Shown: piece by piece, positions 2,777 to 64,000 of the stretch
Layout of the letters: the number at the start of each line of letters is the position of its first letter
Numbering within the stretch: position 1 is the first letter of the stretch
NCBI GenBank assembly: GCA_021325455.1
Contig: JAJPHD010000001.1
Location: 154,306-218,305 of the forward strand
DNA from: Actinomycetota bacterium
GTDB lineage: Bacteria; Actinomycetota; Acidimicrobiia; Acidimicrobiales; JAJPHD01
Direction of reading: 5' to 3'
Length of the DNA: 64,000 nt
Made by a program: the position numbers and the translations under genes
The notes under the pieces: model-generated
Seen by the model: the letters and a program-made list of their open reading frames with translations, nothing else
The model's database searches: none
Told to the model about the DNA's origin: nothing

Positions 2777-4167
2777 CAGCGGTCCACCTCCCCCATCACC
2801 GGGTCCACCGACGAGATGACGGCCACGGCGTCGGCCACCAGGCCCCCCTTCAGCATGACCGGCAGGCTCTGGAGGTTCACGAAGGACGGCCCCCGGATGT
2901 GGAGGCGGTAGGGCTTGGGGGAGCCGTCGGACACCAGGTAGCAACCCAGCTCACCCCGTGGAGACTCCACGGCCACGTACACCTCGCCCTCCGGCACCCT
3001 GAACCCCTCGGTGAAGATCTTGAAGTGGTGGATGAGGGCCTCCATGGACTGGTCGATCCGGCCCCTGGGCGGCGGCGTCACCTTCTTGTCCTGCACCCGG
3101 TAATCGCCCGTCGGCATCCTGTCCAGGATCTGGCGGATGATCTTCACCGACTCCCGCATCTCGTTGAGTCGCACCGCGTACCGGTCGAAGGTGTCGCCGT
3201 AGGTCCCCACCACCACGTCGAAGGCCACCTGGTCGTAGTACAGGTACGGCATGGTGCGGCGGAGGTCCCAGGGGACCCCCGAGGCCCGCAGGATGGGGCC
3301 GGTGGCCGAGAGGGCGATGGCAGTCTCCTGGCTCATCTGGCCGACTCCCTCGGTGCGCTCCCGGAAGATGGGCTGGCCCGTGAACAGCTCGTCGTACTCG
3401 TGCAGGCGCGGCGGGATCATCTCGCAGATGGCCGACACGTCGTCCTCCCAGCCATCGGGAAGGTCCGCCGCCACCCCTCCCGGGCGGATGTAATTGTGGT
3501 TCATGCGCAGGCCGGTGACCTTCTCGAAGAAGGAGAGCACCACCTCCCGCTCCCGGAACCCGTAGATCATCATGGAGGTGGCACCCAGGTCCATCCCGTT
3601 GGTCGCCATCCACATGAGATGGGAGGAGAGGCGGTTGAGCTCGCACATGAGCATGCGGATCCAGGTCGCCCGGGGAGGTATCTCCACGCCCAGGAGGGCC
3701 TCGGTGGCCAGGGAGAAGACCAGCTCGTTGTGGAGGGGGGAGAGGTAGTCCATGCGGGTGACGTTGGTCGCCCCCTGCACATAGGTGAGCTCCTCCCCCG
3801 TCTTCTCCATGCCCGTGTGCAGATAGCCCACCACCGGCTTGGTGCGCAGCACCGTCTCGCCGTCGAGCTCCATCATCACCCGGAGCACCCCGTGGGTGGA
3901 GGGGTGCTGAGGACCCATGTTGATGATCATGGTCTCGTCCTCGGACACCTCGACGTCGATGTCCGAAGGGTCGATGGCGACGCCCTCAGGCAGGCGGAGC
4001 ACCGCCCCCTCCTGGCGGTGCAGCTCCTCGGCCCGGGTGCGCAACCGCTCGGCCATCTCCTGGGGTCCCTCGGAGGTCTCGGCCACGAGGGCCGTGCTCT
4101 CCCACCGGCCCGAGCGGGGAGGCGGGCCCGCCGGCCGGGGCGACTGCTGGACGTCGTAGGTGGTCAT
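2776..4167 (-). CDS. nuoD: NADH-quinone oxidoreductase subunit D
   Basis: NuoD is the 49-kDa quinone-site subunit of complex I, related to the hydrogenase large subunit. The 463-residue protein starts its conserved core about residue 80 with [14 protein letters not shown], followed by [13 protein letters not shown] and ending in the [13 protein letters not shown]-terminus that is typical of NuoD. The first 75 residues are a divergent, Pro/Arg/Glu-rich extension. The ATG start at 4167 overlaps nuoC by four bases (ATGA), and its stop overlaps nuoE the same way, so translation of the operon is coupled. Confidence 0.97.
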
Positions 4168-6005: not shown

Positions 6006-7289
6006 ATGGTCAACCAGCCCCGGCACCGCTACGACGCCCTCATCGTAGGGGCCGGGCCGGCCGGCTCCTCCTGCGCCTACTGGCTGGCCGAGGCGGGCTG
6101 GGACGTGTGCGTGGTGGAGCGCAAGCGGTTCCCCCGGGAGAAGACCTGCGGGGACGGGCTCACCCCCCGGGCGGTGCGCCAGCTCGAGGACATGGGGCTG
6201 GGCCGGGAGCTGGGCGGCCACCACCGCTTCGAGGGACTGCGGGCCATTGCCGGCGGGCGGGCCCTGGAGCTGGCCTGGCCCCGGCATCCCGAGTATCCGA
6301 GCTACGGCTACGTGGTCACCCGGGCCGAGCTGGACTCGCTGGTGGCAGGGCGGGCGGAGCGGGCCGGGGCAACCATCCGCTACGCGACCGAGGCCGTGAG
6401 CCCCCTCAGGGAGGGCGGTTCGGTGCGGGGGGCGGTGGTGCGGGGACCGGACGGGCCCGAGACCGTGGCCGCCCGCTATGTGGTGGTGGCCGACGGTGCC
6501 AACTCCCGCTTCGGCCGAGCACTCGGCGTGGCGAGGGAGAGAAGGTGGCCCCTGGGGCTGGCGATCCGGGGCTACTACCTCTCCCCCCGGTCGGCCGAGC
6601 CCTGGATCGAGTCCCATCTCGACCTCCGGGACGGGGACGGCGCCGTCCTGCCCGGGTACGGATGGGTCTTCCCTCTCGGGGACGGCCGGGTGAACGTGGG
6701 GGTGGGCCTGCTCTCCACCTCGGCCCGCTGGAAGGGGGTCAACACCACCCGCCTCATGGAGGCCTTCGTGGAGGCCGTGCCGGCCTCGTGGGGGCTGTCC
6801 CCCGCCACCTGCTGCTCCCCCCCCACGGGGGGAAAGCTGCCCATGGGCCTCTCGCTGCGCCCTCACGCCGGCCCCAGCCACCTGGTGGTTGGGGACGCCG
6901 GGGGGTCGATCAACCCCTTCAACGGGGAGGGGATCGCCTATGCCTACGAGACCGGCCGTATGGCCGCCTTCTCGGTGGGTCAGGCCCTGGCCGGCAACGA
7001 CCCGACCGCCCTGGCCGCCTACCCCCGGCGCCTGGAGGAGGCTTACGGCACCTACTACCGGGTGGCCCGGGCCTTCGTCCGCCTCATCGGCCGGCCCCGG
7101 CTCCTCTCCGTCCTGGTCGGGACGGGCATGCGCAGCCGCCCGCTCATGGAGTGGGTGCTGCGCATCATGGCCAACCTCCTCCGCCCGGAGGAGGTGGGGC
7201 CCGCCGAAGCCGCCTACCGGGCCGTGGCCGCCCTGGCCCACCTGGCCCCCCTCTCGCCCGCCGACCAGCCCCCCGCGCCCACCAGCTGA
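6006..7289 (+). CDS. Geranylgeranyl-reductase-family FAD-dependent oxidoreductase
   Basis: A 427-residue flavoprotein of the geranylgeranyl reductase family, which saturates isoprenoid chains; in actinobacteria close relatives act on menaquinone side chains or lipids. It has the N-terminal FAD Rossmann motif VGAGPAGSSCAYWLAEAG (about residues 15-32), the family motif CGDGLTPRAVRQL near residue 48, and the second FAD motif VVGDAGGSINPFNGEGI near residue 295. It is divergent from nuoA, which supports a role in making the quinone used by complex I; that link is inference. The ATG at 6006 lacks a ribosome-binding site but has TAGCCT nine bases upstream (leaderless signature). Confidence 0.85.
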   Translation: MVNQPRHRYDALIVGAGPAGSSCAYWLAEAGWDVCVVERKRFPREKTCGDGLTPRAVRQLEDMGLGRELGGHHRFEGLRAIAGGRALELAWPRHPEYPSYGYVVTRAELDSLVAGRAERAGATIRYATEAVSPLREGGSVRGAVVRGPDGPETVAARYVVVADGANSRFGRALGVARERRWPLGLAIRGYYLSPRSAEPWIESHLDLRDGDGAVLPGYGWVFPLGDGRVNVGVGLLSTSARWKGVNTTRLMEAFVEAVPASWGLSPATCCSPPTGGKLPMGLSLRPHAGPSHLVVGDAGGSINPFNGEGIAYAYETGRMAAFSVGQALAGNDPTALAAYPRRLEEAYGTYYRVARAFVRLIGRPRLLSVLVGTGMRSRPLMEWVLRIMANLLRPEEVGPAEAAYRAVAALAHLAPLSPADQPPAPTS

Positions 7290-7336: not shown

Positions 7337-8602
7337 CTAGTCCACGAGGGACGACAGGGCCTCCTCGGCGGCGGCCATGGTGTGGGCCAGCTCCTCGGGC
7401 CCGTGGGCCAGGCTGGGGAACACCGCCTCGTACGCCCCGGGGGCGAAGGCCACCCCCCGCTCCAGCATGGCCCGGAAGAAGCGGGCATAGCGATCTCCGG
7501 CGGCCGCCGCCCGCGCACCCTCGTAGTCGACCACGGGCTCATCGGCGAAGAACAGCCCGAGCAGAGGTCCCACCCGGGGGACCTGGAGGGGGACCCCGGC
7601 CCGGCCGGCCGCCGCCAGCAGGCCCGAGGCCAGCTCGGCAGCAGTGGCGGACAGGATGGAATAGGCCTCCGGGCCCAGCTCCCCCAGAACAGCCAGGCCC
7701 GCCGCCGTGGCGAGCGGGTTCCCCGACAGGGTCCCGGCCTGGTACACGGGCCCTGTCGGGGCCAGCACCTCCATGACCTCCCGGCGCCCCCCGAAAGCGG
7801 CCAGGGGAAGGCCCCCACCGATGACCTTGCCGAAGCACCACAGGTCGGGGCAGACCCCGCTCCACTCGCTAGCCCCGCCCCGCCCCACCCGGAACCCCGT
7901 TATGACCTCGTCGAACACGAGCAGGGCCCCGACGCTGTCACAGGCCTCCCGCAGCCCGGCGAGGAAGCCTTCCGCGGGGGGCACCAGGCCCATGTTGGCG
8001 GCGACGGGCTCCACCAGCACGCAGGCCACGTCCGAGCCGAGCTCGGGGACCCGGTTGAAGGGTGAGACCACCGTGTCGGCCACTGCCCCCGCCGGCACGC
8101 CCGCCGAGCCGGGCAGCCCCAGGGTGGCCACCCCACTGCCGCCGCTGGCCAGCAGGGCGTCGGCGTGCCCGTGGTAGCAGCCGGCGAACTTCACCACCCG
8201 GTCCCGGCCCGTGTACCCCCGGGCCACCCGGACGGCGCTCATGGCCGCCTCGGTGCCCGTCCCGACCAGGCGGACCTGCTCGCAACCGGGCACTCGCCGG
8301 GCGATCTCCTCGGCCAGCACCACCTCGGCCTCGGTGGGGGCCCCGTAGGTCGTGCCTCTCCGAGCGGCGGCGCTGACCGCCTCCACCACGGCGGGATGGG
8401 CGTGGCCCAGTATCGAGGCCCCGTACGACTGGACGTAATCGACGTAGCGCCGGCCCTCGACGTCCCACACGAAGGGGCCCTCCGCCCGGGCGACAAAGTA
8501 GGGGGAGCCGCCCACTGCCTGGAACGCCCTCACCGGCGAGTTCACCCCGCCCGGGGTCACCCGGCAGGCCCGCTCGAAGAGAGCCCGGTTGGTGCTCCCC
8601 AC
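7337..8602 (-). CDS. hemL: Glutamate-1-semialdehyde 2,1-aminomutase
   Basis: HemL converts glutamate-1-semialdehyde to 5-aminolevulinate, the second step of the C5 haem pathway, in the cytoplasm. The 421-residue protein has the N-terminal signature TPGGVNSPVRAF, the PLP-contacting LVFDEVITGFR (D231) and the PLP lysine in CFGKVIGGGLP (K259), and is the usual length of the family. The GTG start at 8602 lies three bases after the hemB stop, so the two genes form one transcription unit. Together with hemA further along the same strand this makes the whole C5 route present. Confidence 0.96.
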   Translation of the reverse strand: MGSTNRALFERACRVTPGGVNSPVRAFQAVGGSPYFVARAEGPFVWDVEGRRYVDYVQSYGASILGHAHPAVVEAVSAAARRGTTYGAPTEAEVVLAEEIARRVPGCEQVRLVGTGTEAAMSAVRVARGYTGRDRVVKFAGCYHGHADALLASGGSGVATLGLPGSAGVPAGAVADTVVSPFNRVPELGSDVACVLVEPVAANMGLVPPAEGFLAGLREACDSVGALLVFDEVITGFRVGRGGASEWSGVCPDLWCFGKVIGGGLPLAAFGGRREVMEVLAPTGPVYQAGTLSGNPLATAAGLAVLGELGPEAYSILSATAAELASGLLAAAGRAGVPLQVPRVGPLLGLFFADEPVVDYEGARAAAAGDRYARFFRAMLERGVAFAPGAYEAVFPSLAHGPEELAHTMAAAEEALSSLVD

Positions 8603-57631: not shown

Positions 57632-58195
57632 CTAGTGATGGTGGTGGGCGGCCCTGGTGAAACGCTGCTGGCAGACCTCGTAGCCCCGGAACGTGTGGGT
57701 GTGGGACACGCAACGCTGCAGCTGGTTGATGTCCGTGGCGTGATGGAGGACGAACACGCCGGTCGCGATCAGCAGGCCGACGGAAACGGCCAACCCCACA
57801 CCCCCGGCGAACACCCCGAAGGTGGCCTGGGCCCGGCTCCCCCCTTCCCCCCTCAGGACCTTGCTCCGGGCGGACAGGCCGAGAGCAACCGCGACAGCAC
57901 CCAGGATCAGCCCCAGGGCCGGGACCAGGACCATGAAGAGAAGGCTCAGAAAGCCGCACGCCAGCGCTCCAAGGCCCCTTCCACCCGTGGAGGAGGCCCC
58001 CTCTGCCGCCTGGTCCCCGGCGCTGAGCTGGCGCTGCGAGACGGGACGCGAAGGGGGCGCGAACTCGTCTTCCGCGGCTCGGGCCGCGCTGCGGTCCTGG
58101 CGCTTGCTCCTCTCGGGGCGGGCCCAGGTCCCACCCGGGTCGTCCAGCCCCGAGCGCCGGGGGAGTCCCCAGGACCTAGACCTGGCGGCCCTCAT
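57632..58195 (-). CDS. DUF4190-like membrane protein with a His4 end
   Basis: A 187-residue protein: a charged, Ser/Arg/Gln-rich cytoplasmic N-half, then two hydrophobic helices (about residues 75-105 and 125-150) with LGLILGAVAVALGLSARSKVLRG between them, the pattern of DUF4190-type proteins, and an outside tail with two cysteines ending in AAHHHH. The ATG at 58195 overlaps the stop of the dehydrogenase-like gene (ATGA), so the two are coupled. Function unknown; the His tail could bind metal. Confidence 0.62.
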   Translation of the reverse strand: MRAARSRSWGLPRRSGLDDPGGTWARPERSKRQDRSAARAAEDEFAPPSRPVSQRQLSAGDQAAEGASSTGGRGLGALACGFLSLLFMVLVPALGLILGAVAVALGLSARSKVLRGEGGSRAQATFGVFAGGVGLAVSVGLLIATGVFVLHHATDINQLQRCVSHTHTFRGYEVCQQRFTRAAHHHH

Positions 58196-59247
58196 CGTGG
58201 CCCCGTGACCTGCTCTCCCCTGCGCCCCGTGCCCGGCTGTGCCGGCTGGCCGGGACGATCCCCATTCCCGGCGTCGAGCACCGCGGCCCGCACCCCTAGC
58301 TGTGCCAGCTCGTGGAGCAGGGGGACCGGGTCGGTGACCATCTCGGCCAGGCCGGCGGCGCCGGGGCGCGCCAGACGGCCGGCCACCGCCCAGGATGCCG
58401 CGATGGCGGCGACCGTGCCGGCCGCCACCGCGGGCCGATCCACGGCCCCCAGCACCACGCTGGCCGGCTCCCCGTTCGTCGTTCCTCTTACCTCGACCCT
58501 CACGGCCCCCAGGGTCCCCTCGACCTGAGGACGGCCGATGGGGGGCAGCAGTGATGCGTACCTCTCACGCCGGGTCGCCCCGATCCTGGCCACGATCTCG
58601 GCGTCAGGGAAGGCCGGCGCCAAGAGCAAGGGGTCAGCCACCCTTGCCGGCGCGCACCCCTGGCCCCCCACGGGTTCGGGGAACCAGCACAGCTCTCTCC
58701 CGGTGCCGGCGAGGGATCGCATCCAGGGCCCCAGCCGCCACCGCGGGGTGGACACCGAGGCGAGAGCCTTCTGCCTACCCCGAGCGCAGGCCGGGCCCCC
58801 ACTCCCCCACCGGGCCACCCGGATCTCGTGCACCCGCTCGAGGTCGTGGGCGGCATGACGAGCGAGGACACAGCTCAAGCCCGGCGAGAACCCAGCGCCG
58901 ACCACCAGATGGCATCCCCGCCCACTGGCCTTGCCGTCGAGCTCCAGCAACCGGCGCGCCGCCTGGTCGTCATCGGTCACCGACACCACGTGGACCCCCA
59001 GGTCCAGGGCCTGCTCCGCAAGGGAGTGGTGAAGGCCGGGGCTGGCGAGGACAACCACCTCTGAAGCCGACACCGACCGGGCCGACCAGGGTCCGGCGGC
59101 GGCCCCCGGTCCCAGGGCCTCGGCCACGGCCGCGCCCCGGGCCCGGTCGGGGTCCACGACCAGGACGGAGCTCTCGCCCGGGAGCGACATGAGCTGCCGG
59201 GCGACGCGGCTCCCCACCGCCCCCGACCCCACCACCACCGCCCTCAC
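58192..59247 (-). CDS. Saccharopine-dehydrogenase-like NAD(P)-binding protein
   Basis: A 351-residue protein with an N-terminal Rossmann motif VVGSGAVGSRVARQL, SEVVVLASPGLHHSLAEQAL and VVSVTDDDQAA, followed by VVGAGFSPGLSC, the layout of the LYS9/saccharopine reductase-like family. The substrate is unknown: many family members act on small amino acids or lipids, and lysine-pathway genes are not near. GTG at 59247. The gene is coupled to the DUF4190-like gene downstream. Confidence 0.75.
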   Translation of the reverse strand: MRAVVVGSGAVGSRVARQLMSLPGESSVLVVDPDRARGAAVAEALGPGAAAGPWSARSVSASEVVVLASPGLHHSLAEQALDLGVHVVSVTDDDQAARRLLELDGKASGRGCHLVVGAGFSPGLSCVLARHAAHDLERVHEIRVARWGSGGPACARGRQKALASVSTPRWRLGPWMRSLAGTGRELCWFPEPVGGQGCAPARVADPLLLAPAFPDAEIVARIGATRRERYASLLPPIGRPQVEGTLGAVRVEVRGTTNGEPASVVLGAVDRPAVAAGTVAAIAASWAVAGRLARPGAAGLAEMVTDPVPLLHELAQLGVRAAVLDAGNGDRPGQPAQPGTGRRGEQVTGPR

Positions 59248-59298: not shown

Positions 59299-59436
59299 CT
59301 AGCGCAGGTCGGGTCCGGCCAGTTCCCGCCAGGTCCCTGGCGAGTGGTTGCGGTCGGGCCCGCCCCGTCGCCGCGCCAGAGCTGCCGCCAGACCGGCGGC
59401 CACCAGGGCGAACATGAATCGCTGCGACAGCTTCAT
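59299..59436 (-). CDS. 45-residue single-pass membrane microprotein
   Basis: From the ATG at 59436 the product has the N-terminus MKLSQRF, a hydrophobic helix (about residues 7-20, MFALVAAGLAAALA), an Arg stop (RRR) and a polar tail ending in AGPDLR. The positive-charge distribution puts the tail in the cytoplasm. It has no ribosome-binding site; instead the ATG touches the last arm of a tRNA-like structured element. A longer frame from 59496 would cross that element. The protein is a good candidate because of its charge and helix pattern, but it is short and unproven. Confidence 0.4.
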   Translation of the reverse strand: MKLSQRFMFALVAAGLAAALARRRGGPDRNHSPGTWRELAGPDLR

Positions 59437-59540
59437 GAGCGGGGCCCACCGGGATCGAACCGGACTGCCCGACCCCAGCGCCGGGCACCAAGGCATGAGC
59501 CCCTTGGCACCATCGAACTATAGTGCCGACCCGCCGCTCA
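59436..59540 (-). ncRNA. tRNA-like cloverleaf element, not a canonical tRNA
   Basis: On the minus strand outer arms TGAGCGG/CCGCTCA (59534-59540 with 59436-59442) enclose four hairpins: GCAC/GTGC (59523-59526 with 59507-59510), CAAGG/CCTTG (59502-59506 with 59489-59493, eight-base loop GGCTCATG), TGCCCG/CGGGCA (59482-59487 with 59466-59471) and CCGG-TTCGATC-CCGG (59449-59463), the last exactly like a T-arm. The order matches acceptor, D, anticodon, variable and T arms of a class II tRNA, but the anticodon loop has eight bases and no standard T33-anticodon-R37 layout, and the acceptor has a bulge. It may be a decayed tRNA, an unusual tRNA or a structured leader. Confidence 0.4.
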
Positions 59541-59635
59541 GCCCTTCGGACCGGTGCCGGTCTGCCGGTCGAGCCAGCCCTGGGTCCAGGCACCCCTTCC
59601 GGTCCCTGTCACTCCCGGTTTCTACTCTCGGGGCG

Positions 59636-60169
59636 ATGACAGCCGCCGTCGCCGTCCTGGGGATATTGCTCGCCCTCGTCCTGGTCCTCCTGGTGCGTCT
59701 CTACGCCTACAAGGCGACCCACCCCTACACCGGAGCCCAACTCGAGCGCGCCCGCCAAGACAGCGTGGTGGCCAGCCGGGCCGTCGTCACCGGCCAGGTG
59801 AAGGAGCACCTCCTACCCCTGCTGCCCGAGTGGCCCTACAACCCCCGGGATGCCAAGTTCCTCGGCCAGCCTGTCGACTTCGTGGTGTTCGAGGGCCTGT
59901 CCGACAACGTGGTGGACCGCGTCGTCTTCGTCGAGGTCAAGACGGGCAGATCGGGCGCTCTCAGCCAACGGGAGCGGTCCGTGCGCGACGCCGTGCGAGC
60001 CGGCAACGTCGCTTACGAGGTGATCAAGCTGGGTGCCACGAGGGAGTCACCTCGTCCCGCCCCCCTCGCCCCAGGGGAAGCGGGCGACCTCCCGGACCAG
60101 CCCGCGCAGCCGGGCCCTCAGCCCGCTCACCCGGTCCGGCGCCGGAAGGACCCCCGCCCCCCGGCATGA
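59636..60169 (+). CDS. Membrane-anchored Holliday-junction-resolvase-like nuclease (COG4741 type)
   Basis: A 177-residue protein with an N-terminal transmembrane helix (residues 3-24) and a nuclease-like domain with PVDFVVFEGLSDN and VVFVEVKTGRSGALSQRERSVRDAV; the Asp ... Glu-x-Lys set fits the PD-(D/E)XK fold of predicted Holliday-junction-resolvase-related endonucleases. The C-terminal 35 residues are Pro-rich. ATG at 59636 has TACTCT seven bases upstream (leaderless). It converges with the acetyltransferase gene with one base between stops. Confidence 0.75.
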   Translation: MTAAVAVLGILLALVLVLLVRLYAYKATHPYTGAQLERARQDSVVASRAVVTGQVKEHLLPLLPEWPYNPRDAKFLGQPVDFVVFEGLSDNVVDRVVFVEVKTGRSGALSQRERSVRDAVRAGNVAYEVIKLGATRESPRPAPLAPGEAGDLPDQPAQPGPQPAHPVRRRKDPRPPA

Positions 60170-60170
60170 G

Positions 60171-60647
60171 CTACGGGGCTCCTCGGCGCCCGTCTGCCCG
60201 AGGGCGAGCGAGAACCATGACGGTGGCAGTGTCCGGGCACAGGGAGGCCACCTCCTCGGAGGCATTGACCGGCCCCCGGAGGTCGGCCCGGTTCATGACC
60301 CCGAAGCCCAAGCGGGCAAAATAAGCCCTCGCCGTGGTCGTAAGGAGGACGATCTCCTCTGCCTGGCTCCCGGCCTCCGCTATGGCCGTCTCCACCAGGG
60401 CTCGACCCGTACCCACACCACGGTACGAGGGGTCCACGGCAAGAGACCGCAGCAAAGCCTGGGCCCCATAGGGCTCGAGCCCCACGCAGCCCACCACCCG
60501 GCCGTCGCCGTCCCGGGCCAGCCAGAATCGGCCCTTCCCGGCCCTGATCCCTCCCGTGGGGAGGCCGACCCGGGTCACCAGCCGCTCCACCTCGTCCAGC
60601 TCGGACGGGTCAGCCACGGCGATCGTCGCCCTGTCGTTCCTGTTCAC
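60171..60647 (-). CDS. GNAT-family N-acetyltransferase, ArsN2-like
   Basis: A protein of about 158 residues with the acetyl-CoA motif LRSLAVDPSYRGVGTGRALVE and the C-terminal LLTTTARAYFARLGF. The LPTGGI ... VVGCVGLEPYGAQALLRS pattern resembles ArsN-type acetyltransferases linked to arsenic resistance, but no ars gene is nearby and substrates vary. I choose GTG at 60647, which has AGGGG at the right distance, over the TTG at 60668. Confidence 0.78.
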   Translation of the reverse strand: MNRNDRATIAVADPSELDEVERLVTRVGLPTGGIRAGKGRFWLARDGDGRVVGCVGLEPYGAQALLRSLAVDPSYRGVGTGRALVETAIAEAGSQAEEIVLLTTTARAYFARLGFGVMNRADLRGPVNASEEVASLCPDTATVMVLARPRADGRRGAP

Positions 60648-61014
60648 GATCGGCCCCTGGCCCTCCAACCGGTCATTGCCTGCGACCGACCCTAGCGCCG
60701 CGGTGTCACGGTGTTCAGCGAGCCACCAGTTCCTTGCGTCACCCCGAGACTAAGCGCAGGCAGTCACACCTTGTACCACCGTGGCAACTATGGAATGGGA
60801 TCACCGTCCGCCCTCACGACCAGCATCAGGGCCTTCGCCAGTCCAGATCACGGTTGAGGCTTTCCAGCCGGTTCCGGGTTGCGGCTAGACAAGCTTGGCC
60901 CTTCTATCAGCAGTCCGGTGCCTACGTCTGCCAGCCCAACCGGTCATTCCGGGAGGGCCTGACGCACCTCGGCTTCTATACAGATGGGGCCATCCAAACA
61001 CTCATCCCCGCTAT
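60648..61014. other. Stretch without an intact gene
   Basis: Apart from a gene fragment at its right end (60893-61018, plus strand) I see no gene, promoter or stable hairpin. Composition is lower in G+C than the core, as in other decayed parts of this island. Confidence 0.5.
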
Positions 61015-61018
61015 TCAG
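60893..61018 (+). pseudogene. Fragment of an unknown gene
   Basis: The frame gives AWPFYQQSGAYVCQPNRSF and HLGFYTDGAIQTLIPAIQ, which read like real protein (aromatic, Gly and Asp placement) while the codons before and after do not. After 61018 the frame enters the antisense of the next relic. I take it as a truncated relic; the family is not known to me. Confidence 0.35.
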
Positions 61019-61472
61019 TCCAGCGTCACGTCCACGCCGTAGGCCCGGGCGGCCTCGGCGAGTGTCGGCAGCAGGACCTTGTGGACCTCTCCTTGAACCT
61101 CCGCACCGCCGCCCTGCCCGATCCCGATCACCGGCAGGGCCACCATGGGTGGTCGGTCTCCGCCGGGCGACAGCTCCTCCGCCGCCCTCCGCACGAACTC
61201 CTCACCGGCGTCCGCGTACCACCTCGGATCCTCGCCTGGCCAGCTCCCCACACATCCCAGCCATATCTGGGGTGAGTGCTCACCGCCACCGAACGGGATG
61301 ACCCGCCTCCCATTCCAGGAATGGCCCGAGTCCGCGACCCGGCCCTCAGGCCGAAGGCGGGGCGGAAGGCCTCCGTGACCTCGAACACCGCGTCGGTAGG
61401 AAGGAGCCAGGCGTCACACCGGAGCTTGGTCACGTCGCCCTGGATCACGAACAGATGGCCAGTGCTGCTCAC
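61015..61472 (-). pseudogene. Frameshifted and truncated relic, macro/SIR2-type N-terminal region
   Basis: From GTG 61472 (GGAGG five bases upstream) one frame encodes TGHLFVIQGDVTKLRCDAWLLPTD and EVTEAFRPAF. Near 61345 the sense switches frame to GRVADSGHSWNGRRVIPFGG, IWLGCVGSWPGEDPRWYADAGEEF and PPMVALPVIGIGQGGG, and stops at 61015. I recall such N-terminal regions in proteins that carry a SIR2-like part behind; that part is absent here. So the gene is broken by at least one frameshift and a 3' deletion. The family call is from memory and tentative. Confidence 0.5.
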
Positions 61473-61732
61473 GCCACCCTCCTCCACCCTTGGGATCGGG
61501 CAGAGTGTAGGCGTTGCCGTGACTCCTCCTCGACGACCCCATCTCCTTTCCCACCCATCCGGCGCCCTTACCGCCGGGCCGGTCGAAGGCCCAGCAGTTG
61601 GCAAGAAGGAGTGCCCAATTATCGGGTCAGAACATCCTCGTTGCCGTGGTGAGATTAACCGCGGACGGACGCTGAATTCGGGAGCGCCGTCGGCGGCGAA
61701 TGAGAGGACCGTTACCTGGAAGAGACAGGCAG

Positions 61733-61806
61733 TGGGGCTAGCTGGACTCGAACCAGCGACCTCAGCATTATCAGTGCTGCGCTCTAACCAGCTGAGCTAT
61801 AGCCCC
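61733..61806 (-). tRNA. tRNA-Ile (anticodon GAT)
   Basis: Acceptor GGGGCTA/TAGCCCC, D-arm AGCTCAGCTGGTTAGAGC, anticodon loop CTGATAA, T-arm GCTGGTTCGAGTCCAGC. Discriminator A; CCA not encoded. It follows the gyrA-DUF3566 pair as in Mycobacterium. Confidence 0.96.
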
Positions 61807-61819
61807 CGGCGTTGCGAGC

Positions 61820-62260
61820 CTACCTCGCCGCCCGCCCCGACGAGTCCCGCTCCTCGAAGATCACCCCCACGCCACCCACCAGGTCCGCAACCAGGTTGTA
61901 CACGATGGCGAGGATGGTGTTGACCACCGTCCCTATCCCCACCAGGACCAGGCCCACGTACACACCGAAGTGCAGGACCCGGGAGCCGAGGTGGCTGATG
62001 CGGGAGAAGCCGATCCGCACAATGAAGCTCTGCAGGTGGTGGATGGCGCCGGCAGCCACCGCCACCTGCCAGATGATGACCCCCGCCACCAGGGCCACAG
62101 CCAGCAGGCCCAGGTAGAAGAGGAGGGAGATGAGGAGCACGGTGTGGGCGTCGACGTGCCTCACCCGGCGGCGCACCCAGTGGCTCCGGGCCCGGGCCTG
62201 GGCCCGGGTGGAAGCGGCCGCCCGGGTGGCCCGCCCGGCCGGGGCGGGGGGCGCCCTCAC
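61820..62260 (-). CDS. DUF3566 membrane protein
   Basis: A 146-residue protein with a basic, Ala/Arg-rich cytoplasmic start, VRHVDAHTVLLISLLFYLG opening helix 1, a second helix near residues 98-125, and the characteristic FSRISHLGSRVLHFGVYVGLVLVGIG and NTILAIVYNLVADLVGGV (in pieces) of the DUF3566 domain. It is found next to gyrA in most actinobacteria and may have a membrane or division role; this is not established here. GTG at 62260 overlaps the gyrA stop (GTGA). Confidence 0.93.
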   Translation of the reverse strand: MRAPPAPAGRATRAAASTRAQARARSHWVRRRVRHVDAHTVLLISLLFYLGLLAVALVAGVIIWQVAVAAGAIHHLQSFIVRIGFSRISHLGSRVLHFGVYVGLVLVGIGTVVNTILAIVYNLVADLVGGVGVIFEERDSSGRAAR

Positions 62261-64000
62261 CGCCCGGCCTCCTCGCCATTGGCCAGCACCGGGGCCACGG
62301 AGGCGACCACCTGGCCCGGATCGAGGTGCATGACCCGCACGCCTGTGGCATCCCGGCCCTGCGAGGCGATCTCCCGGACCGGTGTGCGGATGGTCACACC
62401 GTTGGAGGAGATAAGCAGGACCTCGTCCTCCAGCCCCACCATGAAGGCCGAGACGACGTAGCCACGGCGGGCGGTGAGCCTGATGCCCCGCACCCCGAGG
62501 CCTCCCCTGGCCTGGCGGGAGAAGCGGTCCAGCTTGGTGCGCTTGCCGTAGCCGGCATCGGTAACGAGCAGGATGTCGGCCTCGTCCCGGGCCACGTCGC
62601 AGGACACCACCTCGTCCCCGGGCCGCAGCCGCATCCCGTGCACCCCTGCTGCCGACCTACCCATCGGACGCACCTCCTCCTCGGAGAAGCGGATCGTCAT
62701 GCCCTGGCGGGACACGAGGAAGAGGTCCTGGTGGCCGTCGGTGGGCACCACCCGCACCAGCTCGTCCCCCTCCTTGAGGCCCAGGGCGATGAAGCCCTCC
62801 CGGCGAGACTTGTCGTACTCGGCCAGCTCGGTCTTCTTCACCTGCCCCAGGCGGGTGACGAACACCAGGAACCGGTTGGTCTCGTAATCCCGGGTGTCGA
62901 TCACGGCCTGGATGCTCTCCCCCGGCTCCAGGGGGAGCAGGTTGACAATGGCCGTGCCCCGGGCCGTGCGCTCCTTCATCGGGATCTCGTGTGCCTTGAG
63001 CCGGTAGACGCGGCCCCGGTTGGAGAAGAACAGGAGGTAGGCGTGGGCCGTGGTGTGGATGATGTGGGCCACCAGGTCCTCGGTCTTGAGGCGGGTGCTG
63101 CGCACCCCCCGTCCGCCCCGGCCCTGGGTGCGGAAGGCGCTGGCCTGCATGGCCTTGACGTAGCCCGCCCGGCTCATGGTGACGACCAGCTCCTCGTCGT
63201 CTATGAGGTCCTCGGCGTCCAGGTCCCCGGGGTCGAAGGTGATGCGCGAGCGCCGGGGCTGGGCGTAGGCCTCCCTTACCCGGGACAGCTCGTCCTTGAT
63301 GACCTGGCGCAGCCGGGCGGGGTCGGCGAGGATGGCCTCCAGCTCGGCGATCCGCTGGCGCAGCTCGTTGAGCTCTCCCTCCAGCTCGGCCCGGCCCAGG
63401 CGGGTGAGGCGTCCCAGCTGCATCTCGAGGATGTGGTTGGCCTGCACCTCGCTGAAGGAGAACGGCTCGGACATGAGGCCGTCCCGGGCAGCGGCCCGGT
63501 TCTCCGAGGACCGGATGAGGGCGATGATGGCGTCGAGCTGGTCGATGGCCCGCAGGAGGCCCTCGACGATGTGGGCCCGGTCCTGGGCCTGGCGCAGCCG
63601 GTGCTCCGACCGCCGCCTCACCACCTCGACCTGGTGGTCCACGTAGGCCCCGAGCATCTGGGCCAGGTTGAGGGTGCGGGGCACCCCGTCCACCAGGGCC
63701 AGCATGTTGACCCCGAAGCTGGACTGGAGGGGGGTGTGCTTGTAGAGGTTGTTGAGCACGACGTTGGCGTTGGCATCCCGCTTGAGCGAGATCACCAGCC
63801 TGGTCTGGCCCTTGGCCGACAGGTTCCTCACATCCCGTATCCCCTCCAGCTCCCTGCTGTCGGCCAGCTCCTTGATCTTGGCGGCTATGCCCATGATGGA
63901 CGTCTGGTAGGGGATCTCGGTCACCACGATCTCCTGGCCCCCGCGGTGCTCCTCGATCTCGGCCACGGCCCGCATCCTGATCGAGCCCCGCCCCGTGCGG
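62257..64000 (-). CDS. gyrA: DNA gyrase subunit A (partial, N-terminal part off the window)
   Basis: About 580 C-terminal residues of GyrA. The reading frame is open to base 64000, so the start and the catalytic tyrosine are outside. Present are the end of the breakage-reunion domain (EIPYQTSIMGIAAKIKELAD, NHILEMQLGRLTRL), the coiled-coil tower (DHQVEVVRRRSEHRL) and the complete C-terminal beta-pinwheel with the GyrA box QGRGGRG and repeated blades such as RLPTDGHQDLFLV-type and YGKRTKLDRF. GyrA wraps DNA for negative supercoiling. It is co-transcribed with the DUF3566 gene. Confidence 0.97.
   Translation of the reverse strand, partial: RTGRGSIRMRAVAEIEEHRGGQEIVVTEIPYQTSIMGIAAKIKELADSRELEGIRDVRNLSAKGQTRLVISLKRDANANVVLNNLYKHTPLQSSFGVNMLALVDGVPRTLNLAQMLGAYVDHQVEVVRRRSEHRLRQAQDRAHIVEGLLRAIDQLDAIIALIRSSENRAAARDGLMSEPFSFSEVQANHILEMQLGRLTRLGRAELEGELNELRQRIAELEAILADPARLRQVIKDELSRVREAYAQPRRSRITFDPGDLDAEDLIDDEELVVTMSRAGYVKAMQASAFRTQGRGGRGVRSTRLKTEDLVAHIIHTTAHAYLLFFSNRGRVYRLKAHEIPMKERTARGTAIVNLLPLEPGESIQAVIDTRDYETNRFLVFVTRLGQVKKTELAEYDKSRREGFIALGLKEGDELVRVVPTDGHQDLFLVSRQGMTIRFSEEEVRPMGRSAAGVHGMRLRPGDEVVSCDVARDEADILLVTDAGYGKRTKLDRFSRQARGGLGVRGIRLTARRGYVVSAFMVGLEDEVLLISSNGVTIRTPVREIASQGRDATGVRVMHLDPGQVVASVAPVLANGEEAGR

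Follow-up and report, generated by a model that had tools for sequence, protein, structure and literature searches.

A tRNA-Ile relic abutting a microprotein gene in Acidimicrobiales is a candidate bacterial t-element

Within a 64,000-nucleotide (nt) stretch of an Acidimicrobiales genome (Actinomycetota bacterium, GCA_021325455.1, contig JAJPHD010000001.1, positions 154,306 to 218,305; hereafter the window), a structured element lies immediately upstream of a gene for a 45-amino acid (aa) microprotein. Comparison with related genomes identifies it as a 64-nt relic of a tRNA-Ile gene (59440..59503, minus strand), whose D and anticodon arms are gone and whose acceptor and T-arm have been kept. 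We consider that this degenerate copy, left in the ancestral slot, probably works as a t-element, a tRNA-derived structure at an RNA end that RNase P and tRNase Z cut. On a wider scale, the balance is about even for a class of bacterial t-elements that would have arisen repeatedly in Acidimicrobiales as tRNA-Ile left its slot and the decoding parts were lost, the acceptor/T-arm being kept by selection since its removal would make the leaderless 5′ end of the operon's mRNA.

Read in tRNA register, the relic comprises a 5′ acceptor strand (GGGGCTC, 59497-59503), a 32-nt middle (59465-59496), a T-arm (TCCGG-TTCGATC-CCGGT, 59448-59464), a 3′ acceptor strand (GGGCCCC, 59441-59447) and a discriminator-like G (59440), all on the minus strand, which yields an acceptor of 7 base pairs (bp) and a T-stem of 4 bp. 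A 3-nt spacer, CTC (59437..59439), separates it from the start codon; in other relics this spacer is about 2 nt. The middle folds as one hairpin, TGCCCG-GCGCTGGGGT-CGGGCA (59466..59487), in place of the D and anticodon arms, and single hairpins are likewise formed in the relics of two relatives, G077 and G099. Upstream, 13 nt from the GGGG of the relic, lies a putative −10 box of the relic/microprotein operon, TATAGT (59517..59522, minus strand). This assignment is based on comparative spacing: of 107 loci with an intact tRNA-Ile, 63 have TANNNT 10-14 nt upstream of GGGGCT, against a background of 0.2 per position, and the distance is 14 nt in G077 and 13 nt in G099. A sigma-70 scan demanding a −35 element gave no match.

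A first-pass annotation had described positions 59436-59540 as a four-hairpin, class II cloverleaf with an 8-nt anticodon loop and a bulged acceptor, within a region bordered by tRNA-Ala and tRNA-Ile. The hairpins are real and lie on the minus strand, where this segment reaches a minimum free energy (MFE) of −60 kcal/mol (z = −3.1; 3 of 200 shuffles equally good). The outer helix TGAGCGG...CCGCTCA(TG), directly followed by the ATG of the 45-aa protein, and the T-arm CCGG-TTCGATC-CCGG are also present, and the flanking tRNAs are as described. The cloverleaf itself does not hold. Its proposed D-arm, GGCACTATAGTTCGATGGTGCC, is best read as promoter sequence, because it contains TATAGT at the distance typical of tRNA-Ile promoters. 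Furthermore, the 5′ half of the outer arm (59534-59540) lies upstream of the −10 box, so outside a transcript from that promoter, and the 8-nt loop and the bulge are products of the wrong register.

ARAGORN called no tRNA at the element and Rfam RF00005 did not match it at the gathering threshold, a blindness of tRNA finders that the reading as a relic explains. The best relevant sub-threshold Rfam match was tRNA-Sec (RF01852, 15.9 bits versus a cut-off of 47), which was already in the right register, with an acceptor of GGGGCUC/GGGCCCC within 59440-59504. We then scored T-stem, T-loop and acceptor jointly as a minihelix placed 1-6 nt upstream of a start codon. The window relic scored 41 (minimum of 43 and median of 45 at loci with an intact abutting tRNA), a value that 5000 dinucleotide shuffles failed to reach and that ranks first among all 3836 ATG/GTG sites of the window, both strands included. 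An acceptor plus T-arm this good at a start codon exceeds chance. The 5′ acceptor strand alone was not significant in a free search (p = 0.11 in the window and 0.11-0.50 in single relics); it is weak evidence by itself in GC-rich DNA and so was not used alone, being backed in our reading by its register with the promoter and by other genomes.

Other identities were tried and discarded. The genome's own tRNA set is complete, with tRNA-Ile(GAT) intact and tRNA-Sec normal, which dismisses both a tRNA-Sec identity and a role as supplier of a missing tRNA. An origin from another of its own tRNAs was rejected because local alignment did not outperform shuffles (10 of 100 equally good). A recent integration-site (att) remnant of tRNA-Ile was likewise rejected, as it would repeat the tRNA 3′ end exactly, and the element shares at most 11 consecutive nt with any of the genome's own tRNAs, in that case a tRNA-Met; nor was any matching direct repeat found in 59380-62300.

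Since a direct DNA search of 59 relatives returned only the element itself and a 26-nt chance match in a tRNA-free stretch, the locus was traced through the oxidoreductase gene that follows the microprotein. Across Acidimicrobiales, gyrA is typically followed by a small membrane protein gene, tRNA-Ile(GAT), the ~45-aa microprotein and the oxidoreductase, in that order, with an intact tRNA-Ile ≤200 nt upstream of the microprotein at 108 distinct loci. In the window, it is the element that occupies this tRNA-Ile slot, and the intact tRNA-Ile(GAT) (61732..61806, minus strand; ARAGORN, Rfam 77.2 bits) stands 2.2 kb further upstream, with other genes between. G077 and G099 are arranged alike (tRNA-Ile, about 2 kb, relic, microprotein), and their relics are clearer than that of the window, the 3′ half being plainly tRNA-Ile (GAGGTCGCTGGTTCGACTCCAGCTGGCTCCA in G099). 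Slot, promoter register and these clearer relics of the same architecture point to descent from a tRNA-Ile gene. The decayed tRNA that the annotation offered as one of three readings was thus right as regards origin.

Seven relics adjoin the microprotein start (window, G077, G099, G277, G251, G135 and G305), all of them 2-3 nt from the start codon. Conservation of the arms in relatives, on which the annotation had made its proposal depend, is borne out: acceptor and T-arm are conserved and covary. In the alignment, 91.7% of acceptor and T-arm cells are paired versus 83.9% upon shuffling (0/500 as high), and 8 are double-changed versus 3.2 (0/500); sliding the partners lowers pairing to 27-62%. 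In the window relic, the double changes with respect to its own tRNA-Ile are A7-U66 to C7-G66 and U51-A63 to C51-G63. Relatedness among sequences can by itself push values above such shuffles, and we take this covariation as support, not proof. The free MFE structure contains acceptor and T-arm in five of the seven. On the oxidoreductase tree, the relics need five changes, at least three of them forced by well-supported branches. The G277 relic is nearest to G078, where 2 nt separate the end of an intact tRNA-Ile from the ATG (locus L079), and in the family of G251, the tRNA-Ile of G211 is intact and abuts the gene (locus L207). Less weight was given to G277, a metagenome-assembled genome (6% contamination) that carries the locus twice; its contigs C40 and C233 each hold a microprotein-oxidoreductase locus, one with the relic and the other with tRNA-Ile ~1.9 kb upstream, which may reflect duplication or a mixed bin. 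The T-arm also persists in three non-abutting relics (G061, G216 and locus L175), none of which has a good 5′ acceptor strand. Loci L188, L191, L193 and L200 carry an extra 5′ hairpin (e.g. CTCGTCC...GGACGAG) between a TAGGTT −10 box and the relic, not seen in the window, G077 or G099.

We next compared the microprotein start sites by class of locus. In 29 of the 108 loci with a nearby tRNA-Ile, the intact gene abuts the microprotein, the start codon following the discriminator by 1-5 nt; none of these 29 shows a Shine-Dalgarno-like motif or a −10 box at the start. The seven relics behave identically, with neither a Shine-Dalgarno sequence (0/7) nor a promoter at the start codon (0/7). When tRNA-Ile lies 5-20 nt from the start, a Shine-Dalgarno-like motif is found in 16 of 18 cases. 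At loci with neither the tRNA nor an abutting relic, TANNNT precedes the start by 6-9 nt in 23 of 46 (background, 4.8%), a spacing that corresponds to the layout expected of a leaderless promoter. A different solution to the same junction appears in another clade (L118, L124, L130, L132, L145, L151-L156 and others), where GGAGG directly follows the tRNA-Ile discriminator (CCCCA-CGGAGG), so that the Shine-Dalgarno lies some 12 nt upstream of the start of the microprotein.

Relics therefore match abutting tRNAs in their start-site features, and the simplest common account would be that the 3′ cut of the tRNA or relic makes a leaderless 5′ end. From the slot, the promoter register, the minihelix, the covariation and the lack of a Shine-Dalgarno or start-codon promoter, as read in the sequences, we infer transcription, two cuts and leaderless translation along the following lines. 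The working tRNA-Ile would have become separated by about 2.2 kb, the degenerate copy staying in the old slot. Transcription would start about 6-7 nt downstream of TATAGT, and the acceptor/T-arm minihelix would be recognised by RNase P on its 5′ side and by a tRNA 3′-end-cutting enzyme. RNase P is indeed able to cleave minihelices of acceptor plus T-arm (PMC11143913). As for tRNA 3′ ends, the cut in Propionibacterium acnes and Streptomyces falls between the two Cs of CCA or a few nt further on (PMC3848588, PMC4681348). Cleavage on the 3′ side, 0-3 nt ahead of the AUG, would then give the microprotein-oxidoreductase operon a leaderless mRNA, the same outcome being expected wherever an intact tRNA-Ile abuts the microprotein gene. 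The annotation's third reading, a tRNA-mimic leader gating translation, came close to this comparative picture, although the likelier role is RNA processing to a leaderless mRNA, not gating.

Several observations weigh against this proposal. The T-stem pair 49-65 is lost in the window relic, whose fold constrained to acceptor and T-arm is 2.8 kcal/mol worse than its free MFE (−35.1 versus −37.9 kcal/mol); an alternative fold is better by 2.2-2.8 kcal/mol in the window and G305. The covariation comes from seven partly related sequences, selected in part for having acceptor and T arms, and some of the T-arm variation is also present in the intact tRNA-Ile of relatives. Finally, no protein of the window's own genome passes the NCBIfam cut-off for RNase Z, the best candidate scoring 45 of 293 bits (G000, C17:207721-208350).

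The same observations were also weighed under other explanations. An unlikely one, which nonetheless keeps appreciable weight, is that the relic is neutral: a displaced or decaying tRNA-Ile copy, for instance the 3′ remnant of an integration, has no present function and its arms persist for want of time. It would accommodate the distance of 2.0-2.2 kb that separates the upstream tRNA-Ile from the relic in the window, G077 and G099, the tRNA-Ile and two 3′ fragments in a row in G216, as repeated integration would leave, and the visible decay of the non-abutting relics of G061 and G216. However, the middle is unrecognisable in most abutting relics, yet their acceptor and T-arm stay paired via double changes; the helix still ends 2-3 nt short of the start codon, where neither a substitute promoter nor a Shine-Dalgarno has appeared, and the pattern recurs on at least three branches. 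We find it quite improbable that the transcript stays uncleaved and regulates microprotein translation as a structured leader, such as a tRNA mimic binding a factor. Although a helix ending at the start codon in a conserved position, with no Shine-Dalgarno, would suit such a device, the same junction exists at 29 intact tRNA genes, which need processing anyway, and no link was found from the genes downstream of the element to tRNA or isoleucine metabolism.

Translational coupling is very unlikely. A possible leaderless open reading frame (ORF) of 25 codons (59433..59510, minus strand) begins with a GTG at 59510, 6 nt after TATAGT, and its stop overlaps the microprotein start (ATGA); this layout is confined to the window, as no ORF begins 4-12 nt downstream of the −10 box in the six other relics, and the frame is probably due to chance. 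Scarcely credible, lastly, is a functional non-canonical tRNA, be it armless, tRNA-Sec-like or of the long-acceptor, short-T-stem kind, which was another of the annotation's readings. The 7-bp acceptor, the T-loop TTCGATC and the weak tRNA-Sec match speak for it, but the element has lost D-arm, anticodon arm and anticodon, no anticodon arm stands in register, no anticodon is conserved across the relics, and all tRNAs are present elsewhere in the genome. In tRNAs of the allo-tRNA kind, acceptor and T-stem total 12 bp, as 8/4 or 9/3, and the anticodon is usable; with 7 bp plus 4 bp, that is 11 bp, and no anticodon arm, this identity was rejected for the element.

Processing of a tRNA also frees a downstream mRNA in the tRNA-tufB co-transcript of Escherichia coli, which differs from the relic in having a functional tRNA and an mRNA with an ordinary leader. 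Further parallels are the t-elements of plant mitochondria (e.g. 5′ of cox1 and 3′ of ccmC in Arabidopsis), where cleavage by RNase P and RNase Z can define an mRNA end (PMC11658184). These are tRNA-derived, like the relic, and are placed at mRNA ends and not aminoacylated, as would be predicted for it, whereas the relic is bacterial, has lost its D and anticodon arms, and its predicted cut would yield a leaderless mRNA. In Haloferax volcanii, tRNase Z cuts the 3′ side of a t-element that precedes 5S rRNA and so generates the 5′ terminus of the RNA that follows (PMC4326828); that element is tRNA-like, as here, but archaeal and placed before an rRNA, not an mRNA. In a literature search of incomplete coverage, we found t-elements in plant mitochondria and a haloarchaeon only, and none in bacteria. 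With respect to the Rfam families of tRNA (RF00005) and tRNA-Sec (RF01852), the relic shares acceptor and T-arm, stays below threshold and lacks D and anticodon arms. Its tRNA descent and its acceptor/T-arm, a candidate substrate for RNase P and tRNase Z, are those of a t-element, and we file it as a candidate rather than a proven member. If the proposed cleavage is true, it would be a bacterial pseudo-tRNA kept as a signal forming an mRNA end, tRNA maturation would be tied to leaderless translation, and a "dead" tRNA could remain under selection for half its structure.

The microprotein (59299..59436, minus strand), with its hydrophobic N-terminal stretch, belongs to a conserved unnamed family of ~45 aa present at nearly all the Acidimicrobiales oxidoreductase loci examined: a hidden Markov model of the family matches 179 of the 182 loci carrying the downstream oxidoreductase, and no Pfam or NCBIfam family scores above cut-off. 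In other Actinomycetota, the same slot between tRNA-Ile and tRNA-Ala holds another tiny hydrophobic protein, DLW-39 (NF038356), which starts about 40-80 nt after tRNA-Ile behind a purine-rich leader (four loci inspected). The Acidimicrobiales microprotein does not match the NF038356 model; from synteny and size, the two may be counterparts. Downstream of the microprotein lies the NAD-binding oxidoreductase-like gene (58192..59247, minus strand; GFO_IDH_MocA, PF01408, E 3.7e-8), syntenic across the order. On its other flank, the element is bordered by a divergent Holliday-junction-endonuclease-like gene (59636-60169; Pfam PF10107), and the window copy of the syntenic small membrane protein gene is at 61820-62260. 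In G216 (C287, minus strand), tRNA-Ile (8206-8280) is followed by two copies of its 3′ end, at 6864-6890 and 3586-3618, which suggests repeated integration at the tRNA. In the window, the DNA between tRNA-Ile and relic contains a GNAT gene (60171-60668, minus strand) matching the arsenic resistance N-acetyltransferase ArsN2 of NCBIfam (128.1 bits versus a cut-off of 125). Next to it, the segment 60700-61604 (minus strand) holds a partial ORF (61128-61604, containing VIQGDVTKLRCDAWLLPTD), has no NCBIfam match and resembles a broken gene.
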